Origin: Bradyrhizobium barranii subsp. barranii
GTDB lineage: Bacteria > Pseudomonadota > Alphaproteobacteria > Rhizobiales > Xanthobacteraceae
Direction: 5' to 3'
DNA: 64,000 nucleotides
Assembly (NCBI RefSeq): GCF_017565645.3
Contig: NZ_CP086136.1
Coordinates: forward strand, 4,757,501-4,821,500
Shown: in pieces, positions 1,343 through 16,137 of the stretch
Layout: each line of letters starts with the position of its first letter
Position numbering within the stretch: position 1 is the stretch's first letter
Notes under the pieces: generated by a model
The model's input: the letters and a program-made list of their open reading frames with translations, nothing else
Databases searched by the model: none
What the model was told of the DNA's origin: nothing
Made by a program: the position numbers and the translations under genes

Positions 1343-2161
1343 TTACGTATCTTGAGGTCTGCTCGTGGGTCGATCAGTTCCCAGAAACGATCGAAACCTC
1401 TCGGATTGAGGATTGGCCATGATGTCGCGCGGCGCGCCATGCTCCACGATCACGCCACCGTCCATGAAGATGACGCGATCGGCAACCTCTCGGGCGAATC
1501 CCATCTCATGCGTGACCACGATCATCGTCATGCCTTCGTTGGCCAATTCCCGCATGACGCGGAGCACTTCGCCGACGAGCTCGGGGTCGAGGGCCGATGT
1601 CGCTTCGTCAAAGAGCATAACAGCCGGGCGCATCGCGAGAGCGCGGGCGATTGCCACGCGCTGCTGCTGGCCGCCGGAGAGGCGAGCGGGATATTGGTCG
1701 GCCTTGTCGGCCAAGCCGACCTTCTCGAGCAACTCCAGCGCCTGCTTCCTCGCTTCAGTCTTGTCTCGGTGTTGGACCGACACTGGCCCCATCATAACGT
1801 TCTGTAGGACGGTCCGATGCGGGAACAGATTGAAGCTTTGAAAGACCATGCCGACATGCTCACGGTTCTTCGCAACCACCTTCTCATCAAGCATGCGGCG
1901 ATGGCCTTCGCTGCCGCTCCTATAGCCGACCGGTGCGCCATCCACTGTGATGGTGCCGTCCTCGAATGTCTCAAGGAAGTTGACGCAGCGCAGCATGGTG
2001 GACTTGCCCGATCCGCTCGGGCCCAGAACGACTACGACTTCACCGCGCCGGACATCGAAAGAAACGCCGTTCAGGACACGATGCGTCCCGAAGGATTTCA
2101 CGAGGCCATTTACCGACACGACGATGGGCGATTCAGCGGATATGGTCATGGGCACCCTCAT
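1343..2161 (-). CDS. Polar amino acid ABC transporter, ATP-binding protein
   Basis: This 272-residue ATPase energises the adjacent permease pair. Walker [10 protein letters not shown] lies at about residues 47-55, the signature LSGGQQQR at about 161-168, and Walker B with the D-loop ([10 protein letters not shown]) at about 183-192, as in the GlnQ/HisP group. I start it at 2161 because the ATG there overlaps the permease stop as ATGA; an earlier in-frame ATG at 2188 lies inside the permease gene, and another ATG at 2149 is possible. It is the last gene of a leftward LysR-SBP-permease-permease-ATPase run. Confidence 0.93.
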
Positions 2162-2808
2162 TGATCGAAGGAGAGTTTCCGCTCGCAATAGTTCGCGAGC
2201 AGCGAAATGGGGTAGCAGATCAAAAAGTAGATCAGCATGACCCCCAGGAAGATTTGGAAAGCCGCGAGTGTTCTCTCCACGACCTCGCGAGCCGCAAAGG
2301 AGAGTTCCCAGGCTCCGACGACCGAGGCGTAAGAGGTCTGCTTGATCGCCATAAGCGAGATGTTGAGGATCGGCGCAATCGAGAGACGGGCTGCCTGAGG
2401 GAGGACGACCTCACGGAGCATCGTCAGCCGCCGCATGCCAAGGCTCTTAGCTGCTGCGATCTGGCCGGTCGGCACGGCTGCTATGGCGCCGCGCACTGCC
2501 TCGGTGACGAAGGCGCCGACATAGAAGATCATCGATATCATGACTGCGGCGTAGGCGCTGAGACGGATTCCAAATGCCGGGAAAGTGTAGAAGCCGAGAA
2601 ACATCACGACCAATACCGGAATGCCCCGAAATACGAAGACGTAGGACGTAACGATCGCCCGGAGGATCGGTCCGCTGCCGCTCGCGATTGTTCCAACGAC
2701 CGCGCCAAGAAACGTGCCAGCTATGACGACGACGAAGGCAAGCCAAAGCGTCACCAGAGCACCCTGCAACAGGTAGGGCAGATTTGCGAGAAGGACGGAT
2801 ATGCTCAT
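2158..2808 (-). CDS. Polar amino acid ABC transporter, permease 2
   Basis: A 216-residue inner-membrane subunit of the His/Glu/Gln/Arg opine (HEQRo) permease family. Hydrophobic segments start at about residues 10, 50, 75 and 180. The EAA-type coupling loop reads [20 protein letters not shown] at about 133-152. The ATG at 2808 overlaps the stop of permease 1 (ATGA), and its own stop overlaps the ATPase start, so translation of the three genes is probably coupled. The in-frame extension up to 3111 only runs antisense-like through permease 1 and is not used. Confidence 0.92.
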
Positions 2809-3473
2809 CCGAGCCTCCGCGCGAAGCGCATCTCGCTGATCCGAAACCCGACGCCGATGACGGAAGTCAGGATCAGATAGAGCGCTGCAACGAGAATGAA
2901 GACTTCGAAGGATGCCCCTGATCTTTCGATGATGACCTTGCCCGATAGCGTCAGGTCGAGCACACCGATCGCCGATACGAGAGACGTATCCTTCACAAGG
3001 ACGATCAGTTGGTTCGAGACGGGTGCCATGACCTTGATAACGGCCTGCGGAAGAACGATCAGGCGAAAAACCGCCCAACGACGCATGCCGATCGCCTGTC
3101 CCGCCTCCCACTGCTTGGTGCCCACGGCCGCGATGCCGCTGCGAATGAGCTCAGACAAAAAGGCTGCGTGCTGAAGCGCGACGGCGAGGACACCGCAGGT
3201 GATCTCACCCCAGAAGATTCCCACGAGTGGCAGGCCGAAGAAGAGGAGGTACATCTGGACGAGGAGCGGTGTATTCCTCATCACCTCGACATAGGCTCGT
3301 ACAAGAGCGCTGGGTAGCCGCCAGCCGGCGACGCGCGGCACAGTGAGAAGCACGCCGATTGCGAGAGCCGTCGGCGCCGCGAGCGCCGCGACAGCGATGG
3401 TAACGAGCATCCCGTTCCAGAGTTGCGGAAGGTAGCGGACGGCGAAGTTGCCAAACTGTGACCAATCCATCAC
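2805..3473 (-). CDS. Polar amino acid ABC transporter, permease 1
   Basis: A 222-residue permease of the HEQRo family with several membrane helices. The binding-protein-dependent transport motif AGQAIGMRRWAVFRLIVLPQ lies at about residues 123-142. It follows the binding-protein gene after 21 bases and overlaps permease 2 by 4 bases. Two ATG codons in tandem begin the frame, so the start could be 3473 or 3470. It should form a heterodimeric channel with permease 2. Confidence 0.92.
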   Translation of the reverse strand: MMDWSQFGNFAVRYLPQLWNGMLVTIAVAALAAPTALAIGVLLTVPRVAGWRLPSALVRAYVEVMRNTPLLVQMYLLFFGLPLVGIFWGEITCGVLAVALQHAAFLSELIRSGIAAVGTKQWEAGQAIGMRRWAVFRLIVLPQAVIKVMAPVSNQLIVLVKDTSLVSAIGVLDLTLSGKVIIERSGASFEVFILVAALYLILTSVIGVGFRISEMRFARRLG

Positions 3474-3494
3474 CCGCCCTCTCTGCGCAGTCGA

Positions 3495-4343
3495 TCAGTT
3501 ATTGTTGAGATACCACTTTGCATTCTTCGGCTTTTCGCCGAACCACTTCTCGTAGATCGCGCTGTACTCGGCGAAGAGATACCCGCCGGTCATCTCGGAC
3601 ACGACGAGATCGAGGTACTGCCAGAGCCGGAAGTCGCCTGGCTTCATGAAGATGCCCGTGTTGACGACATCCGTCAGGCGAGTTTCCATCACGCGCATGT
3701 CCGGGTTGGACTTGACATACCAGGCGGCGACGGGAGCATCGAGCTGAGCGGCCTGGGCTCGGCCAAGCTTCACAGAGTTGAATTGCGAGGCGATGCCGTC
3801 AAAGGTCTGGAGCTTGGCCTGCGGGAAGAGGCGCTTGGCGCGCTCCTCCTGGGTCGGCGTGGTCAGATTGGCGATGGTGATGTTCGGCTTGTTCAAATCG
3901 TCGAGCGTCTTGAAGGGCGCATCCTTGCGGACGATGAGGACGATGCCGCCATCGATATAGTTGCGGGTGAACGCGACCCGCTGCGCGCGGTCGGCGTAGA
4001 TGGTTGTCGTCTGCGCGCCAAAGTCGATCGTGCCGTTCTGGGCATTGGGCCAGCGCTGGGCTGCGCTCTGGCGAATGAACTCGACCTTGTTGGGGTCACC
4101 GAAAGTCGCTTTGGCGATCAGCCGGGCAACATCGATGTCGAAGCCGACCAGCTCCCCCTTCTCGTCGACGAAGCCGAAAGGAGGTGACTCGCTCGACACG
4201 CCGACGACCAGCTTGCCCCGCGCCAGGATTTCATCCAGCCTGGACTTCTCCTGAGCGTGGCTCGCCCCGGCCGCGAGCGCGAACCCGCAGAATGCCGCAA
4301 CCAGACCGGTGACGAACCGGAGTCCATAGCTTCGCATGTCCAT
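3495..4343 (-). CDS. Polar amino acid ABC transporter, periplasmic binding protein
   Basis: A 282-residue precursor. The signal peptide has a hydrophobic core and cleavage near ASHAQ (about residue 30). The mature part has the SBP family 3 layout: LDEILARGKLVVGVSSESP, then FGFVDEKGELVGFDIDVAR, then an Arg-rich FIRQSAAQRWPNAQNG section. This family binds glutamate, aspartate, glutamine and similar amino acids. I chose the ATG at 4343 because it starts directly before the signal peptide; ATG 4337 is also possible, while the frame extension to 4433 adds a non-signal leader. The ligand cannot be read from sequence. Confidence 0.9.
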   Translation of the reverse strand: MDMRSYGLRFVTGLVAAFCGFALAAGASHAQEKSRLDEILARGKLVVGVSSESPPFGFVDEKGELVGFDIDVARLIAKATFGDPNKVEFIRQSAAQRWPNAQNGTIDFGAQTTTIYADRAQRVAFTRNYIDGGIVLIVRKDAPFKTLDDLNKPNITIANLTTPTQEERAKRLFPQAKLQTFDGIASQFNSVKLGRAQAAQLDAPVAAWYVKSNPDMRVMETRLTDVVNTGIFMKPGDFRLWQYLDLVVSEMTGGYLFAEYSAIYEKWFGEKPKNAKWYLNNN

Positions 4344-4460
4344 GTTCCATTGGTTGTTGGAAAGATGTGGCCTTTGCTCAACGACTAGCGCTCGACTTGC
4401 CGCGGCGAAAGAACACGGTTCCTGACGGAGCACGTTAGAAATAGTTACGCTGCCAACGTT

Positions 4461-5432: not shown

Positions 5433-5569
5433 TTGGACTGGTCTTCCGGGGCCGGTCGAACCGGCCCAAAACCGGCGGCATCACCCTTGTGATCGCGATC
5501 ATCGCGAAGATGAGGCCGCGATCGCCGAGTTTTGACCGGCCTATTGGCCAATATCGCGAGGATTTATCG
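5433..5569. promoter_or_regulatory. Divergent intergenic region between LysR gene and catabolic operon
   Basis: This 137-base gap lies between the LysR start and the dehydrogenase start. It is the natural site for a divergent promoter pair and LysR binding. It contains a partly inverted GACTGGTCTTCCGGGGCCGG / CCGGTCGAACCGGCC section, but I cannot define a clear T-N11-A box. The ribosome binding site GAGGA lies just before the ATG at 5570. Confidence 0.4.
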
Positions 5570-6460
5570 ATGCCGACGATCGCCTTCTTGGGTGTTGGCC
5601 GCATGGGTTCACATATGGCGCGTCGGCTTGCCGAAGCCGGACATAAGGTGCGGGCCTTCGATCCCAACGCGCCGGCCGTCGCCAAGCTTGCCCCGGCTGG
5701 CGTGGAAGCTGCCGCAAGCCCCACGGCCGCTGCCGCTGGAGCCGATTTTATTCTGGCGAGCCTCCCTTCTCCAGTGGCCCTGAGGGCGGCAGTAACCGGT
5801 GAGGACGGGATCCTCGCCGCTGCGAAGAAGGGCGCGACAGTGGTCGATTTCAGTACGGTAGACCCCGCGACCACCAAGGCGGTCGCTGCGATCTGCGACA
5901 AAGCCGGGATCAACTATCTCGATGCGCCCGTCAGCGGCGGCGTCGCCGGCGCAGAAAATGGCAAGCTCCTGATCATGATCGGGGGCGACCAGACCGTGCT
6001 GGATGCGACGCGCCCTGTGCTTGAGACGCTGGCTGGCAAGATCATTCATTGCGGCCCGGTCGGTTCCGGACAACTTATGAAGTTGAGCCACAACCTGTTG
6101 ACCGCGATCAACACGGTAGCACTCGGCGAGGTGCTGGCAGCTAGCGTGAAGTCCGGCGCGAAGCTCGACGTGTTGCTCGAGGTTCTCGGCGGAGGTCTCG
6201 CCGGCAGCAAGATGCTGGATTGGCTCGGCAAGACGCTCTTTACGCAGGAGCGGCCAGCCTTTTTCGCGCTCGACCTGATGCACAAGGACATCTCGCTCGC
6301 ACTCGACGAGTTCACGGCTTCACCGATGTATCTCGGGCAGCTCGTTCGCCAGATCTACAATACCGCCCGCGCGGACGGTCTGGGCGGAAAGGATTCCACT
6401 AGCGTCTCGGAGGTCTACGAGCGTTTGCTCAAGGTCAATCTCCGTCAGCCCGCAGCATGA
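5570..6460 (+). CDS. NAD(P)-dependent beta-hydroxyacid dehydrogenase (3-hydroxyisobutyrate dehydrogenase family)
   Basis: A 296-residue cytosolic oxidoreductase that should interconvert a beta-hydroxy acid and its semialdehyde. The Rossmann motif GVGRMG lies at 8-13, the substrate motif DAPVSGG at 118-124, and the catalytic lysine at about 171 (GSGQLMKLSHN). The ATG at 5570 has GAGGA upstream; the longer frame to 5489 lacks a matching leader. It is the first gene of the plus-strand catabolic operon and is directly followed by an aldehyde dehydrogenase, which suggests it makes the semialdehyde that the next enzyme oxidises. The substrate is unknown. Confidence 0.9.
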   Translation: MPTIAFLGVGRMGSHMARRLAEAGHKVRAFDPNAPAVAKLAPAGVEAAASPTAAAAGADFILASLPSPVALRAAVTGEDGILAAAKKGATVVDFSTVDPATTKAVAAICDKAGINYLDAPVSGGVAGAENGKLLIMIGGDQTVLDATRPVLETLAGKIIHCGPVGSGQLMKLSHNLLTAINTVALGEVLAASVKSGAKLDVLLEVLGGGLAGSKMLDWLGKTLFTQERPAFFALDLMHKDISLALDEFTASPMYLGQLVRQIYNTARADGLGGKDSTSVSEVYERLLKVNLRQPAA

Positions 6461-8016: not shown

Positions 8017-9063
8017 ATGGTTATGCTCTTAACCGAAGACTCCACCGGTCCGGACCCTCTTCTGGCCATGGCGGGCGAGCGGTTTGATCGTCTGATGACG
8101 ATTGAATCCCGTCCTCTTTCGGGCGGGCTTCCACCGGGTCTCGTCGTTCCGATGTACGAGATCTGCCGTCGTCATCACGGCGAGCCGTTGTCCACGTTGG
8201 CAGCCAGGGCACTCATGTCGCGCGTCGTCTACGGTGACAACGTCATCGTGGCGACAGGTGCCGGCGTTCCGCCCAAACTCCCGCAGGGCGAAACCGACGG
8301 ACCGCCAGGCGCCGCTGTCCTTGCCCGGGCCATAGCTCTCGGTCTTGGCGCCCAGGTCACGATCGTCTCGGAAGAGGCTCATTCTAAGCCGGTGGAGGCC
8401 TGCGCCGCGCTCGTTGGATCCTTCACGGCAAGGCCGATCAAGGTGGAGACTATCCCGCCTCATCCTAAGTATGGGCCCAAGGCCGTCGAGGCGCTGATGG
8501 CGCGATACCAGCCATCGGCAATCGTCTTCGTCGAGCTCGACGGCCCCAACCCCGATGGTCTTTTCCACGGTGTCCGGGGCGACCGTCGCCCTGCAGGCAC
8601 GATGGCGCATCTTCATTTGCTCGCGGAGGCCGGACGCGCGGCGAAGCGCTTGACGATAGGAATTGGCGACGGCGGTAACGAGGTCGGCTTCGGCGCGGTG
8701 CGGACCGCGCTTGCCGCGTTCCATCCCAACAGCTTCGTTGTCACGGCAGTCGAGACAGACGTGGTCGTCAGCGCTGCGATATCGAACTGGGGTGCGTACG
8801 CCGTTTGCGCCGGACTTGCTGTCGGAATAGGCAGTCCCGACCTGCTACATAACGATGCTCTCGAAGGGGATCTGATCAGAGCCTGCGTTAGCGCGGGCGC
8901 TCGTGATGGCGCTACCGCAAGAACCGAACCCCTCGTTGACGGTGTCCCTGAGAGCGGTCATCGGGGCTTTGTCAGTCTACTCCAAAGCATCGTTGCAAGT
9001 TCGTCAAGCGAACCTGGTCCGGATTCGTCGTCGCGTCAGCGATCTCGCGAGGTGACCCAATGA
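8017..9063 (+). CDS. DUF4392 / D-glutamate cyclase-like protein, copy A
   Basis: A 348-residue protein with the features of the DUF4392 (glutamate cyclase C-terminal-like) family, whose mammalian member converts D-glutamate to 5-oxo-D-proline. Conserved stretches seen: VATGAGVPPKLPQGETDGPPG (about 78-98), a VELDGPNPDG section near 172-181, and GIGDGGNEVGFG at about 215-226. The C-terminal 25 residues are Ser/Arg-rich and poorly conserved in look. It is one of two members in the same operon, separated by a PLP enzyme gene. Activity on D-glutamate is an inference from family membership only. Confidence 0.8.
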   Translation: MVMLLTEDSTGPDPLLAMAGERFDRLMTIESRPLSGGLPPGLVVPMYEICRRHHGEPLSTLAARALMSRVVYGDNVIVATGAGVPPKLPQGETDGPPGAAVLARAIALGLGAQVTIVSEEAHSKPVEACAALVGSFTARPIKVETIPPHPKYGPKAVEALMARYQPSAIVFVELDGPNPDGLFHGVRGDRRPAGTMAHLHLLAEAGRAAKRLTIGIGDGGNEVGFGAVRTALAAFHPNSFVVTAVETDVVVSAAISNWGAYAVCAGLAVGIGSPDLLHNDALEGDLIRACVSAGARDGATARTEPLVDGVPESGHRGFVSLLQSIVASSSSEPGPDSSSRQRSREVTQ

Positions 9064-9272
9064 CGCCGAGCTACGACCCCGCTGTTGGGCCCGACTTCGT
9101 CGGTCTTGTACCGGGCTTGAAGCATCGAGAATGCCTCGCGTGGCGTATTCGCGCGGCAAGACGCTTTCGCCGAATGCTCCTGACAAGAACGCCCATTTCA
9201 TCGCGCATCGCCGGTCACCTTGGCTCCCTGGTTATCCGCATCGCCAAGTCACACTGGTTCTAGGAGAAGATG

Positions 9273-10583
9273 ATGACAGCCGTCGCCTCGGAGTCGAAAA
9301 CGCAATCCCCGAAGCCCACAGATCGCTTCGGCAATCCCATCGATCCCATTGTCGGCTTTGCGCGTGGTACCATCATCCGATCCAGTGTCGACGAAGCGCG
9401 TCGCCTTCGGCAGGGACAGGCCGTAGCGGCCGATCGTGTCCGCAAGCTCGGCCCGCATTCCATTGGTGTGTTCACAGGAAATCAGCGAGACTTTCCGCTC
9501 AAGCCGGAGGATCTTACGACACTGTGCGAGGAATGGGTCGGCCCGGGCCTCTTCGCCGAAGACCTCAGAGTGGCAGCTATCACTCACCTCGGTGGTGAGG
9601 ACGGGGATGGCGTCGCTGTATTCAATCGCACCAGCGCGGGAATCATTGCCACCATCGTCGCTCATGCCGCCGGCAGCCCCGTGATTTCGGTCGTCCCTCC
9701 GGGCGGGCGATCGCACGCTTCGGTGATCCGAGGCTGTTCCATCGCCCGGGTGGAACTCGTCGAAATCGGGGGCGATCGCGACTGGCAGGCGGCTCTGACC
9801 AAGGCGAAACCCAACCTCGTCGTCGTCACCACCGTAACGAGCGCCCTCGAGCTTCTGGACGACACCGTGACCTCGGCTGTCGTCAAAGCCACCCACGCGG
9901 TCGGCGCTATTGCGTTCGTGGACGACGCTTATGGCGCCCGTCTGCGTCCTGTGCTCCACGGCGGTAAGCCGGGCCTCGCCCTCGGCGCCGATCTCGCGAT
10001 TACCAATTGCGACAAGGCGGGTCTCGCCGGACCGCGCGCAGGCGTCCTTGCCGGCCGCCCCAATCTTGTCACGGCGGCGTCAGCTAAGGGCGCTGAATTC
10101 GGGATGGAGGCACGGGCGCCGATCGCCGCTGGCGCCATGCGGTCTCTCCTGGCTTTTCGGCCCGAGGACCTGCGGGAGGAGGCTCGCTCCGGACAGGCGC
10201 TCGCTGTCGCACTCGCCGAGAAGCTGGGTCGTGACCTCGTGGTTGTCAGCGATCTCGGACCAATGGTCGACGAGCAAGATGTGCTCGCCGTTGTCCTGCG
10301 GCGCGCCGGCCGTTCCGCCGAAGGCCTCGGGCTCGTTCCCTGCGAGGTCTCCTCTGCGCTCGGCATGGTCCTCCTGCGCGACGCTGGAATCCTCACGGTC
10401 AACACCCACGGACAGCCTGGGGCGCGTGTGTCGCTGCGCCTGAAGCCGACACTCGACGCGATCGGGAGAGTTGGCGGCCAGGATGCCGTCGTCGCCGCCG
10501 TCGATACTGCACTCGATCATCTCGCCTCGCGGATCGACGATGTATCCGCAATCTCACAGCTCGTTCTCGGAGACCAGGCATGA
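9273..10583 (+). CDS. PLP-dependent enzyme, SelA / D-glucosaminate-6-phosphate ammonia-lyase-like
   Basis: A 436-residue fold-type I PLP enzyme. The cofactor aspartate lies in FVDDAYG (about 216-221) and the Schiff-base lysine in NCDKAGLAGPR (about 248). The pattern of a lysine followed by a Gly-Pro-containing loop resembles SelA and DgaE-type proteins rather than classic aminotransferases. An AGGAG lies just upstream; the second ATG (9273) gives better spacing than 9270. Its gene lies between two DUF4392 genes and overlaps the second by 4 bases. Elimination, racemisation or transamination of an amino acid are all possible. Confidence 0.78.
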   Translation: MTAVASESKTQSPKPTDRFGNPIDPIVGFARGTIIRSSVDEARRLRQGQAVAADRVRKLGPHSIGVFTGNQRDFPLKPEDLTTLCEEWVGPGLFAEDLRVAAITHLGGEDGDGVAVFNRTSAGIIATIVAHAAGSPVISVVPPGGRSHASVIRGCSIARVELVEIGGDRDWQAALTKAKPNLVVVTTVTSALELLDDTVTSAVVKATHAVGAIAFVDDAYGARLRPVLHGGKPGLALGADLAITNCDKAGLAGPRAGVLAGRPNLVTAASAKGAEFGMEARAPIAAGAMRSLLAFRPEDLREEARSGQALAVALAEKLGRDLVVVSDLGPMVDEQDVLAVVLRRAGRSAEGLGLVPCEVSSALGMVLLRDAGILTVNTHGQPGARVSLRLKPTLDAIGRVGGQDAVVAAVDTALDHLASRIDDVSAISQLVLGDQA

Positions 10584-11596
10584 GCAACGCCAACACTGCC
10601 TTTGCGGGCATGGATGACCGGCTCGACCGACTGGTCAATCTCGATCTCGGGGGCCGAGGCGTCGAACATCTTTACGAGGCGGCTCGCGCGCGGCAAGGCG
10701 GTGCCCTGTGCGGCGCGGCCGCCGAGGCGCTCGCCGCTATCCCGGTGGGGGCGACGGTCGTGGTGACGACGGGCTCCGTCTCGCGGGCCTGGATTTCGCC
10801 CACTATCGGCGAGAACGACGGGCCTGCCGGCGCCGCCGCGGTCGTGCGAGCGCTTGCCCTATCCAAGCGAGCGACCTGTGTCGTTGTCGCGGAGGAGACC
10901 CTGCTCGACGGCACCGCCAAGATCCTTACCAGCGCCGGCCTGTCGGTGCTCCCCTACGAGCAGGCGCGGATTGCGAGCGGCGACGGAAGCCTCGCGGTCG
11001 CCAGCACGCGCTCCTTTCCCGTGACGGACGCCGAGGCGAAGGCCGCCTCCGCCGCCTTGCTCGATGAATTCAAGCCTGCCTTGGTCTTCTCAACGGAGCG
11101 GGTCGGCCGTAACGCCGACGGCATCTATTGCTCGATGCGCGGTATCGACTACGGCATGGGGCGGGCCCGGATTGACTACTTGTTCGACGAGGCGCTCGCC
11201 CGCGGGATTCCTAGCGTCTGCGTGGGCGACGGGGGCAATGAGATAGGCATGGGGGTCGTCGCCGACGCCGTGCGGCGCCATGTGAAGTTCGGCGACGCGC
11301 GGCCGGAAGGCGGTGCCGGCATCGGAGCGGTGACTGGCACCGATGTCCTAGTCACCGCAGCCTGCTCGAACTGGGGTTGCTACGCCATCCTGGGGGCGCT
11401 TGCGGCCCGTCTGAAGAGGCCCGACCTCCTCCATGCGCCAAAAATGGAAGAACACCTGCTGCGTCGCGGTGTCGACATCGGCTTGATCAACTCGGTCGGC
11501 AACGTCGTCGATGCTGACGTCGATGGGATTCCTCTCCAGACGCATGTCGCGATGACCGACTTGATCTCCGCGGTCGTTCGACCAGCGTTGCGCTGA
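10580..11596 (+). CDS. DUF4392 / D-glutamate cyclase-like protein, copy B
   Basis: A 338-residue paralogue of the protein at 8017-9063. It keeps the ENDGPAGA motif (about 78-85) and the [12 protein letters not shown] motif (about 214-225), but the middle motif reads [11 protein letters not shown] instead of VELDGPNPDG, so the pocket probably differs. The ATG overlaps the stop of the PLP enzyme gene (ATGA), indicating translational coupling. Having both copies intact in one operon suggests two successive or stereospecific steps, or a heteromer. The family function is known only from a few members. Confidence 0.8.
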
Positions 11597-11613: not shown

Positions 11614-12363
11614 GTGTCAACCGAACCGATTGCACCCTTCCTCGATCTGCGTGGCATACGCGTTTCGTACGGATCAAACGAGGTTCTGAAGGGCGTCGAT
11701 CTCTCGGTTCGTCAAGGCGAGGTCGTCGTCATCATTGGCCCGAGCGGCAGCGGCAAGAGCTCGCTCCTGCGAACGGTTAACATGCTTCAGCCGGTCGTCG
11801 GCGGTGAGATCGTGCTGGAAGGCCAGGACTTGCTCTCCGGCAAGCAGGACGTGAATAAGGTCCGCCAGCGCGTGGGAATGGTGTTCCAGCACTACAACCT
11901 GTTTCCGCATCTCACCGTTTTGAAGAATCTCACCTTGGTTCCGCGTCGCGTTTTGAAGGAGCCGACTGCGGAATCGGAAGCTCGCGCCCGAGAGTTGCTC
12001 GCGAAGGTCGGTTTGGCAGACAAGGAGAGCAGTTATCCCGACCAGCTTTCGGGAGGCCAGCAGCAGCGTGTCGCGATTGCCCGAGCCCTAATGATGCGTC
12101 CTCACGTGATGTTGTTCGATGAGGTCACATCGGCGCTCGATCCTCAGCTCGTACGCGAGGTCTTGAACGTCATGAAGGATCTCGCGCGCTCCGGCATGAC
12201 TATGCTCGTCGTGACGCACGAAATGAGTTTCGCGCGAGAGGTCGGCGACACACTCGTATTTATGGCCGACGGTGTGGTCGTTGAGAAAGGGCATCCGGCC
12301 GACGTCCTCGATCGACCAGGTCACGACCGCACGCGCCAGTTCCTGTCGCACACTGACGTCTGA
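11614..12363 (+). CDS. Second polar amino acid ABC transporter, ATP-binding protein
   Basis: A 249-residue GlnQ-type ATPase with Walker [10 protein letters not shown] (about 42-50), signature LSGGQQQR (145-152) and [10 protein letters not shown] (about 167-176). Translation starts at a GTG 17 bases after copy B of DUF4392; GAGAGG lies upstream. Unlike the minus-strand system, the ATPase gene comes first, ahead of the binding protein and the two permeases. Confidence 0.93.
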
Positions 12364-12407: not shown

Positions 12408-13283
12408 ATGAACATGCTGAAATGCCTAGCCGCGATCGCGGCCCTGTCATTTTCGATAGTGGCGTTGCCGGCCATCGCGCAGTCGAAGGTGGACGTGCCG
12501 CTGCCCACGGACCTCGCCACGCCAAAGGTGCTGACGATCGGCATCAATTGCCAGTATCCGCCCGCCGGCTATGTCGGGCTCGATGGAAAGCCTGCCGGCT
12601 TTGAGTATGGGCTCGTCAAGCGCATCGCCGAATTTGCCTTCGGCACCGAAGCCGGTCTCCAGACCCAATGTATGAATGACAGCAACCGTATCCCGTTCTT
12701 GCAGTCCAGCAAGGTCGACCTCGTGCTCGCGTCGCTTGCCAGAACTCCGGCGCGCGCCGAGCAAATCGACTTCTCGGATCCGATCTGGTTGAGCAATCTC
12801 CAGCTTGTTGTGAAGAAGGATTCTCCCATCAACAACTACGCCGACCTCGCCGGTCGCACGGTCGTGACGCCGACAGGGAGCACCTACCAGACCTGGTTAC
12901 AGAAGTGTCATCCGAAGGCGAACCTGATCACGGCCCAAAGCCCGGCCGATTCCTCCACGATGCTGATCCAGGGGCGTGCTGACGCCTTCGCCTATATCGA
13001 CGTCTACGACTACAACTTCGTGCAGAACAACAAAAACTTCAAAGTCGTTGGCGAGCTCGCTTCACCTGCGATCCAGGGTATTGGCGTCAAGAAGGGCAAT
13101 GCGGCCATGCTTGCCTGGATCAACGCAGTGATCGCCAAGATGCGCGAAGAAGATGCCTTCTACAAAGCCTTCGCCGAAGAAGTCAAGGATCCGACGATGG
13201 TCGCGAAGTATCGCAATGTCGTCCCGGGGCCGAAGGTCAAGCTCGACTATGCCGGCGTCGATCCCATGGAGTGCAAATCTTGA
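12408..13283 (+). CDS. Second polar amino acid ABC transporter, periplasmic binding protein
   Basis: A 291-residue SBP family 3 precursor. A typical signal peptide ends near PAIAQ (about residue 25). The mature part contains LTIGINCQYPPAGYVGLDGK, GFEYGLVKRIAEFAFG and the VDLVLASLARTPARAEQIDF section typical of amino acid binders. It has an extra cysteine pair candidate (Cys in INCQ and in TQCMND). An AGGAAGG motif lies upstream of the ATG. The ligand may be related to that of the minus-strand system, but the two binding proteins are clearly different in sequence. Confidence 0.9.
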   Translation: MNMLKCLAAIAALSFSIVALPAIAQSKVDVPLPTDLATPKVLTIGINCQYPPAGYVGLDGKPAGFEYGLVKRIAEFAFGTEAGLQTQCMNDSNRIPFLQSSKVDLVLASLARTPARAEQIDFSDPIWLSNLQLVVKKDSPINNYADLAGRTVVTPTGSTYQTWLQKCHPKANLITAQSPADSSTMLIQGRADAFAYIDVYDYNFVQNNKNFKVVGELASPAIQGIGVKKGNAAMLAWINAVIAKMREEDAFYKAFAEEVKDPTMVAKYRNVVPGPKVKLDYAGVDPMECKS

Positions 13284-14658: not shown

Positions 14659-14877
14659 AAACAATTCCTAGTCGATCGAAACCTTCGAGGGAAAGGCAAT
14701 TGCCCCGTTTTGGCGAGACCCGATCGACTCCATCGAGGGCTTTGCGCGGAGACGTGTTCTAGTTCAAGCAAAGCCCAAACTACACCGAGAGCGCGCCCAT
14801 ACCCGTCAGATCATCGCCTAAAAAGCAGCCGTGCGGACGACCATCGACCGTCAACGCTAACTTACAAGGATTGTGCA

Positions 14878-16137
14878 ATGAGCATCTACAGCGGACCGGT
14901 GTTCGCAATGGCGCAGGAGCAGTTTAATCTTGTCGCAGACTACATCGGAATCGAATCGGAACATCGTGACCGGTTGCTATACCCGAAGCGCGCGATCAGC
15001 GTGTCGATACCGCTGCACACAGACGATGGGCGAACAAAAGTGTTCCAAGGGTATCGTGTTCAGCATCATCTTACTTTGGGACCGACAAAGGGCGGTACTC
15101 GATTCTCGCCGCAGTTAGATGTTGGCGAAGTCGCTGCCTTAGCGATTTGGATGAGTTGGAAATGCGCATTGTCGGGGTTGCCTTATGGTGGCGCTAAGGG
15201 CGGAGTTGCCTGCGATCCCAATAGCCTCTCCGCGCGCGAACTCGAGGCGATAAGCCGCCGCTACATGCAAGAGATGATTCCTTTCGTAGGACCGAATACG
15301 GATGTCATGGCGCCCGACATGGGGACGAATGAACAAGTCATGGCCTGGTTCATGGACACGTACTCCATGTACAAGGGGCACGCGATCAATGAGATAGTAA
15401 CCGGGAAGCCCGTCGCGATTGGCGGCACTGCGGGACGGCGGGAGGCGACTGGACGGGGTGTTGCGCATCTCGTCAAACGCGCGCTGGAGTCAATTCAGCT
15501 CGATTCGTCCAGATCGACAGCGATCGTTCAAGGGTTTGGCAACGTAGGAAGTATCTCGGCGTATATTTTGGCCCGAGAGATGGGCGTGAGAATTGTAGGT
15601 CTGAGCGATCACACGGCTGCCTACTACGATCCCGCTGGACTACCGGTAGATGCGATTGAGCGCTACGTCGGTCAGAAGCGGTATTTGGCTGGCTGGTCCA
15701 ACGAGTCGGCCATTGATCCTTCGGAGCTTTTGACCCGCGAATGTGACATTTTGATCCCCGCCGCCACCGAACAGGTCATTACAGCCACAAATGCTTCGGA
15801 GCTTTCGTGTCGGATTCTAGCCGAGGGAGCAAATGGTCCGACAACGCCAGATGCCGACGCGATTATCGAAGAACGAGGCGATATCTTTGTATTGCCGGAT
15901 ATCCTCTGCAACTCCGGCGGAGTGATCGTTTCCTATTTTGAGTGGGTTCAAGACCTGCAGCGGCTCTTCTGGACCGAGAAAGAAGTGAATGATCGATTGA
16001 AAGACATCCTAAATGTGACTTTCGATCGGGTCATTCGCCGCGCCCGCAAAGATGCCATTTCCCACCGCATGGCTGCAATGGCGATAGGGATTGAAAAGGT
16101 TCGTGAAGGGAAAAAGCTGCGTGGATTGTTTCCTTAA
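14878..16137 (+). CDS. Glu/Leu/Phe/Val-type NAD(P) dehydrogenase (glutamate dehydrogenase-like)
   Basis: A 419-residue amino acid dehydrogenase catalysing reversible oxidative deamination to a 2-oxo acid and ammonium. Substrate-binding and catalytic lysines are in GPTKGGTRF (about 71), WKCALSG (about 95) and GGAKGG (about 107). Asp in VMAPDMGT lies near 147, and the nucleotide motif GFGNVG at about 219-224. The ATG at 14878 follows AAGGA; the in-frame extension to 14710 has no family-like content. Base use is lower in GC than the upstream operon. Its position behind the transporters suggests it handles the 2-amino acid product of the pathway. Confidence 0.92.
   Translation: MSIYSGPVFAMAQEQFNLVADYIGIESEHRDRLLYPKRAISVSIPLHTDDGRTKVFQGYRVQHHLTLGPTKGGTRFSPQLDVGEVAALAIWMSWKCALSGLPYGGAKGGVACDPNSLSARELEAISRRYMQEMIPFVGPNTDVMAPDMGTNEQVMAWFMDTYSMYKGHAINEIVTGKPVAIGGTAGRREATGRGVAHLVKRALESIQLDSSRSTAIVQGFGNVGSISAYILAREMGVRIVGLSDHTAAYYDPAGLPVDAIERYVGQKRYLAGWSNESAIDPSELLTRECDILIPAATEQVITATNASELSCRILAEGANGPTTPDADAIIEERGDIFVLPDILCNSGGVIVSYFEWVQDLQRLFWTEKEVNDRLKDILNVTFDRVIRRARKDAISHRMAAMAIGIEKVREGKKLRGLFP

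Follow-up and report, generated by a model that had tools for sequence, protein, structure and literature searches.

A conserved gene cluster joining D-glutamate-cyclase-like DUF4392 proteins to an MJ0158-like enzyme: a possible catabolic route for a glutamate-like amino acid in Bradyrhizobium and other bacteria

Introduction

The activity studied in the DUF4392 protein family is the conversion of D-glutamate to 5-oxo-D-proline (PMC5339696). Here we describe a stretch of 64,000 nucleotides from Bradyrhizobium barranii subsp. barranii (contig NZ_CP086136.1, positions 4,757,501 to 4,821,500; hereafter the window), in which two different DUF4392 genes, A and B, stand on either side of a gene for a pyridoxal phosphate (PLP) enzyme at positions 8017 to 11596. 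Two described proteins invite comparison with A and B. One is TON_0340 (PDB 4fc5, 5gl2-5gl4), whose fold and six acidic metal ligands recur in both; A and B differ from it in being longer and in belonging to an operon with a PLP gene. The other is mammalian D-glutamate cyclase (9030617O03Rik / C14orf159, DGLUCY), which shares the DUF4392 domain (PF14336) and joins it with a PF07286 domain in one protein. Unlike DGLUCY, A and B of the window are single-domain proteins that occur as a pair, are tied to a PLP enzyme and dehydrogenases, and have no PF07286 gene beside them.

The PLP enzyme resembles MJ0158 (PDB 2aeu, TIGR03576), for which a literature search, with or without SelA, found no paper. 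Other versions of the cluster carry an MttB-family gene. In Ruegeria pomeroyi the demethylation of glycine betaine is reported to involve MttB-family proteins, and in Eubacterium such proteins are reported to demethylate other quaternary amines (PMC12478193). Compared with MtgB, the family member of the R. pomeroyi system, the MttB of the marine clusters sits with DAO/GcvT demethylases and with a core of aminotransferase, aldehyde dehydrogenase (ALDH), PLP and DUF4392 genes. The operon is not described in the titles and abstract openings found in a literature search that covered neither subscription papers nor preprints.

Results

The trio comprises the following genes.

8017..9063, + strand: DUF4392-A (D-glutamate-cyclase-like), putative accessory or entry enzyme; 348 residues, intact open reading frame
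9270..10583, + strand: MJ0158-like fold-type-I PLP enzyme; 437 residues, intact open reading frame
10580..11596, + strand: DUF4392-B of the ERVGRN type, its start overlapping the PLP stop; 338 residues, intact open reading frame

Profile PF14336 (DUF4392 / GLUCM-like_C) matches A with 182 bits and B with 203 bits, far above the curated cut-off of 27.9, in agreement with an earlier note on this DNA that had described two intact DUF4392 genes around a PLP gene. The motifs quoted there are present in the translated reading frames: GETDGPPGA and a motif of 15 residues are common to A and B, and the middle motif differs between them (VELDGPNPDG versus a motif of 11 residues). The note had also proposed a single operon with the second DUF4392 gene translationally coupled. 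Coupling by overlap holds for B alone, whose start shares four bases with the PLP stop (10580-10583), whereas A is separated from the PLP gene by 206 bases.

The same note had called the middle gene a SelA/DgaE-like PLP enzyme. A PLP enzyme is indeed predicted, with the PLP-type lysine and aspartate invariant; MJ0158-like, however, describes it better. The protein matches no Pfam family at E<=0.001, its sole NCBIfam match is TIGR03576 (193.8 bits, below the cut-off of 304.45), and its sole PDB sequence match is MJ0158, at 28-29% identity. Its fold is also MJ0158-like: MJ0158 is the closest of the 50 fold matches listed, with threonine aldolases next. It differs from MJ0158 in falling below the equivalog cut-off and in sharing an operon with ALDH and DUF4392 genes. 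No SelA-type profile was matched in Pfam (E<=0.001) or NCBIfam, and SelA and DgaE (D-glucosaminate-6-phosphate ammonia-lyase) are not among the 50 fold matches listed, which excludes nothing. An annotation as 'selenocysteine synthase' had pointed to selenium metabolism. This reading was dropped, since no SelA profile matched and the recurrent neighbour clusters of the loci described below showed neither SelB nor SelD, no search aimed at either having been made. An FAD protein nearest to the 'N-terminal to SelD' model is found at 6 of those 65 loci.

Distribution and conserved core

Among 398 sampled Pseudomonadota genomes, PF14336 is present in 10, including the genome under study; full-length matches to the PLP protein were confined to this genome, with weak partial matches in seven others. 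When the PLP protein was searched against a single genome for each species, by a method that requires exact short peptides and reaches close relatives only, 63 loci were returned from five classes (57 in Pseudomonadota and 6 in Actinomycetota). Together with the window and a second copy in the same genome these make up 65 loci, several of which are truncated at a contig end or at the limit of the 10-kb flank, and their neighbour families were named by Pfam or NCBIfam on representatives.

The core of the cluster, in the order ALDH-PLP-B, is nearly constant. The PLP gene, which served as the search query, is present at 65/65 loci, ALDH at 64/65, and B at 63/65 (B is cut off in L077). DUF4392-A occurs at 23 loci, and 21 of these, the window and the second copy included, have the order A-PLP-B, whose recurrence in other genomes the earlier note had named as the thing to look for. 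Outside Bradyrhizobium the A-PLP-B loci show 45-71% identity. Given how rarely PF14336 occurs in the sampled genomes, this recurrence exceeds what a chance grouping would give. Two variants were seen: in L071 (11255-11551) DUF4392-B has shrunk to a remnant of 98 residues between the PLP gene and a class-V PLP enzyme gene (family V7), and the full cluster of L025 has next to it another PLP-B pair, which is inverted and 62-63% identical to that of the window.

The genes that accompany the core fall into two types of front end. The soil type consists of a beta-hydroxyacid dehydrogenase (HIBADH) and DUF4392-A. In the marine type MttB is joined by one or two demethylases of the DAO/GcvT kind and, in addition, by an aminotransferase, nearest to class-III/omega-type transaminases, and/or HIBADH. 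A and MttB are mutually exclusive (both at no locus, MttB only at 32, A only at 23, neither at 10). Demethylase family DMG3 is found at 34 loci, among them every MttB locus (32/32), and DMG8 at 26. HIBADH type 10 is found at 22 loci and type 14 at 17. The class-III aminotransferase (31 loci) and HIBADH mostly alternate, with both at 8 loci, the aminotransferase only at 23, HIBADH only at 31, and neither at 3 (L033, L057 and L073), all of which are contig-cut. Other families include V7 (30 loci), MFS transporters (10), V18 (7) and an FAD oxidoreductase (6), and the importers in the cluster contexts are of the amino-acid ABC, MFS or TRAP type. Both front ends cross phyla, MttB being found in Acidimicrobiia (4 loci) and A in Actinomycetes (2 loci).

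PF07286 (D-Glu_cyclase), the second domain expected from DGLUCY, was detected by tblastn at 4 of the 65 loci. It immediately follows B in L037, L051 and L054, whereas the L047 cluster has it at another place; Pfam confirmed it in L047 and L054. The B. barranii genome has one PF07286 copy, away from the trio, and one PxpA-family gene.

Metal site and phylogeny of A and B

The six acidic metal ligands of TON_0340 are kept in 23/23 A and 64/64 B proteins (E78, D80, E173, D217, E221 and D315 in B). At the position where TON_0340 and B have Arg (64/64 B), A has Pro or Ala (23/23). In the tree, A (n=23) and B (n=64) each form one clade at 100/99, apart from other DUF4392s, in a run that flagged long branches and unsettled bootstrap; A and B therefore do not stem from a recent tandem duplication. 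A smaller tree of 9 of the 23 A, 15 of the 64 B and 13 other DUF4392s groups A at 100/98 with DUF4392s from S. meliloti, Sagittula and Roseinatronobacter that are linked to transporters. At locus L032, A lies away from the PLP-B genes, with its own LysR gene and a binding protein of the NMT1_3 (TAXI) type. A looks like an entry enzyme because of these two associations. In the full B tree all A-bearing loci group together to one side, with L032 placed among them at 80/89; in the smaller tree L032 falls with the MttB-type loci.

Surrounding genes and regulation

The trio is flanked in the window by these features.

5489..6460 (likely true start 5570), + strand: beta-hydroxyacid (HIBADH/TSAR-type) dehydrogenase; PF03446 and PF14833
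6457..7989, + strand: ALDH; PF00171, 491.5 bits
4461..5432, - strand: divergent LysR regulator; PF00126 and PF03466
5406..5420, no strand assigned: candidate LysR operator GTAAG-N5-CTTTC, 9/10 positions of GTAAG-N5-CTTAC
3495..4433, - strand: amino-acid ABC solute-binding protein; PDB matches to amino-acid binding proteins, and annotation of the counterpart on plasmid pUSDA76
2158..3473, - strand: two amino-acid ABC permeases; pUSDA76 counterpart annotation (block 97.8% identical)
1343..2188, - strand: amino-acid ABC ATPase; pUSDA76 counterpart annotation
11614..12363, + strand: second amino-acid ABC ATPase; pUSDA76 counterpart annotation
12408..13283, + strand: second solute-binding protein (SBP_bac_3); PF00497
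13328..14658, + strand: second pair of ABC permeases; pUSDA76 counterpart annotation
14710..16137 (likely start 14878), + strand: glutamate-dehydrogenase-like gene, just beyond the mobile block; PF00208/PF02812
1314..14843, no strand assigned: duplicated or mobile block around the trio, delimited by the second copy (L005) and pUSDA76 (L078)

The nearest PDB sequences to the HIBADH-like protein are 2-hydroxymethylglutarate dehydrogenase (3cky) and tartronate semialdehyde reductase (1vpd), and by homology the ALDH is nearest to phenylacetaldehyde and betaine-aldehyde types. Both solute-binding proteins are nearest to polar amino-acid binders; the best NCBIfam model for the SBP_bac_3 protein is a cystine-type one, at 98.8 bits and below the cut-off of 312.

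A homologue of the LysR regulator is found at 23 of the 65 loci, two weak matches (66 and 74 bits) being excluded. The operator candidate of the window, near the LysR start, was equalled by 2 of 500 shuffles. Among 17 loci compared, some of which are near-copies, 11 have a GTAAG-N5-CTTAC-like site with 9 or all 10 positions in agreement, for a motif derived from the same sequences that were scored; the other six reach 8 only, a score attained by 41-48 of 500 shuffles. The whole window holds seven sites scoring 8 or more.

The block containing the trio is 96.98% identical to the second copy over 13,536 alignment columns and 97.75% identical to Bradyrhizobium plasmid pUSDA76. Both of these relatives have IS6-family copies in opposite orientation on the two sides, at a distance of 0.2 kb on the left and of 0.9-1.8 kb on the right; the transposase genes of the second copy lie at 3337-4053 and 18713-19534 of L005 (own genome, C1, ~3.07-3.09 Mb). 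Of these copies, the one in the window seems to be the older, chromosomal form, because the IS6 sequence has no match within the window and the similarity to B. manausense (L015) runs beyond the block into the glutamate-dehydrogenase gene. The PLP gene was found in 18 plasmid records (8 from Bradyrhizobium and 6 from Sinorhizobium), 13 of which were typed as conjugative.

DUF4392 in other genomic contexts

Nine other DUF4392 contexts were fetched (L092-L100), and 13 plasmid contexts (L105-L117; all annotated except L117) were picked by hand from match lists rather than at random. In L095 the DUF4392 gene stands with PxpA, PxpB/C, PF07286, a class-IV aminotransferase, NamZ and an RpiR/SIS regulator (Pfam). 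It stands with PF07286 in L099; L097 and L098 look similar by eye only. In L115 it is accompanied by PxpA, by PF07286 and by a gene annotated as a D-amino-acid aminotransferase; PF07286 is also near in L109 and L116. A TRAP or TTT transporter adjoins DUF4392, or is one gene off, in L105, L106, L107 and L111. In L105, on an S. meliloti plasmid (306-14679), hydantoinase/oxoprolinase A and B, KdgD, an ALDH of the alpha-ketoglutarate-semialdehyde type and the TTT transporter are near DUF4392, apparently a different DUF4392 pathway. L114 has a short DUF4392 fragment with a hydantoinase/oxoprolinase gene ~6 kb away. Two of the 12 annotated plasmid contexts have a neighbour of the Asp/Glu-racemase superfamily (EutA/arylmalonate-decarboxylase-like, below cut-offs). 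The lactam or D-amino-acid theme that the earlier note had raised for the trio thus recurs in part of the DUF4392 contexts, with DUF1445, 5-oxoprolinases and D-amino-acid enzymes; these neighbours support a predicted lactam / amino-diacid or D-amino-acid chemistry for the family.

At three of the 12 annotated plasmid loci, namely L109, L113 and L116, a gene for a PF00291 enzyme nearest to threo-3-hydroxyaspartate ammonia-lyase directly precedes DUF4392, and RidA follows in two; the plasmids with this pair are from Agrobacterium, S. meliloti and S. americanum. These contexts resemble the window in having a PLP-dependent neighbour and a LysR gene, and differ from it in that the PLP enzyme is of an unrelated family and no HIBADH or ALDH directly adjoins. 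As judged from gene order, these three cases support a partnership between DUF4392 and an eliminase-type PLP enzyme whose family is unrelated to that of the window enzyme. In Agrobacterium the pair (as in L113 and L109) lies a few genes from bhcRABC.

Three further arrangements were observed. L096 (4680-15401; genome G328) has a giant reading frame of 3573 residues, in which a DUF4781 stretch accompanies a pair of DUF4392 domains, unlike the other members observed. In L108 (6644-14049) DUF4392 has UbiD on one side and an EutA-like gene of the racemase superfamily on the other, and UbiX and an ABC importer are present as well. In L107 (7886-10023) tandem DUF4392 genes lie with a TTT transporter and with no PLP gene adjoining.

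Discussion

What does this cluster do? The gene content gives good support to a predicted catabolic pathway linked to LysR: the conserved divergent LysR gene, the ABC, MFS or TRAP importers, and the HIBADH-like and aldehyde dehydrogenases point to catabolism of an amino acid, as the earlier note had supposed in proposing amino-acid degradation. As to the substrate, we tentatively favor inducible uptake and breakdown of a glutamate-like amino acid that is imported N-blocked or ring-closed, a reading that we consider plausible without calling it probable. The compound would be taken up by the importer, and DUF4392-A, as a Mn/Mg enzyme, would open it or interconvert lactam and amino diacid; in the marine clusters MttB and the DAO/GcvT demethylases would act on a trimethylated compound in place of A. 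The HIBADH-like enzyme (on a primary alcohol) or, in many marine types, the class-III aminotransferase (on an amine) would then give an aldehyde that ALDH converts to a carboxylate, the MJ0158-like enzyme would act on the liberated amino acid by elimination or cleavage at its beta carbon, and DUF4392-B would act on the product or on the unwanted enantiomer. The end product would join the glutamate / 2-oxoglutarate pool. The order of the steps after uptake is a guess, and we infer the substrate, the sequence of reactions and the directions of A and B. The broader proposal, of a fixed core (ALDH, MJ0158-like enzyme and DUF4392-B) with two swappable nitrogen-unblocking front ends as a catabolic route that the papers found do not describe, is possible yet doubtful; in marine bacteria the front end would demethylate the nitrogen of a quaternary betaine, and in soil bacteria a second DUF4392 would open a ring in a metal-dependent reaction.

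Several observations weigh against these proposals. The exclusion between A and MttB amounts on the trees to about one evolutionary event, and therefore not to many independent replacements. Hydrolysis of 5-oxoproline is uphill without ATP, and ring opening by a DUF4392 protein would therefore need pull from later steps. No substrate-specific gene in the cluster names the compound, and the homologies of ALDH, HIBADH, aminotransferase and solute-binding proteins fix no substrate. Seven of the other DUF4392 contexts (L092-L094, L096, L100, L110 and L112) have no lactam or D-amino-acid theme, and the hydroxyaspartate-lyase-like PF00291 genes score 291-303 bits, below the curated cut-off of 452. 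The glutamate-dehydrogenase-like gene adjoins the cluster at 2/65 loci only (the window and L015) and the mobile block stops ~35 bases before its likely start; we regard its case as a pathway member as weak. Among specific substrates, trimethyllysine, homoserine betaine (the DGTS head group), cysteinolic acid, 4-hydroxymethylglutamate and 5-hydroxynorvaline were considered and dropped for want of evidence.

The fold of the PLP enzyme also tells against an elimination, since after MJ0158 its nearest neighbours among the matches listed are threonine aldolases and not an eliminase. The enzyme could be a C-C lyase of the threonine-aldolase type, releasing glycine or another small amino acid from a beta-hydroxy amino acid together with an aldehyde for the neighbouring ALDH, with the DUF4392 proteins handling the other fragment. 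We consider this unlikely, if well short of far-fetched: a common fold proves no function, the matches are general fold-type-I ones at ~15% identity, and HIBADH or the aminotransferase would already supply ALDH with an aldehyde. Another idea takes A and B as plain D-glutamate cyclases; the operon would then get rid of D-glutamate, such as that released from peptidoglycan, by turning it into 5-oxo-D-proline. It has on its side the activity reported for the family (PMC5339696) and the company of PxpA, PF07286 and aminotransferase genes in L095 and L115. The DUF4392s of the L095 group, however, fall in another clade than A and B, PxpA and PxpC occur at none of the 65 loci, and a route for D-glutamate has no need of HIBADH, ALDH, demethylases and this PLP enzyme; we rate this idea as improbable.

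Small-molecule phosphatase activity has been proposed for TON_0340, with which A and B share their metal ligands. The activity reported was low and spread over many compounds, and no kinase or enzyme of a phosphorylated intermediate is among the recurrent neighbour families named, which makes a phosphatase function very improbable here. Hardly any weight, and marginally less than that, goes to a cluster that builds an amino acid derivative instead of degrading one: PLP, ALDH and demethylase-type enzymes do occur in biosynthesis too, but the recurrent neighbours are importers, dehydrogenases and a divergent LysR gene, with no recurrent exporter or peptide-synthetase genes among them.

Catabolism of a glutamate-like amino acid thus stays our tentative choice. 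Carriage of the cluster on plasmids of rhizobia, many of them from soybean, suggests that it serves a plant-linked nutrient. The operon is conserved in culturable bacteria, which makes the functions of both the PLP enzyme and the DUF4392 proteins testable by growth. If a fixed core is indeed served by two front ends, the cluster would provide a physiological role for MJ0158-like enzymes and a second reaction for the D-glutamate cyclase family.

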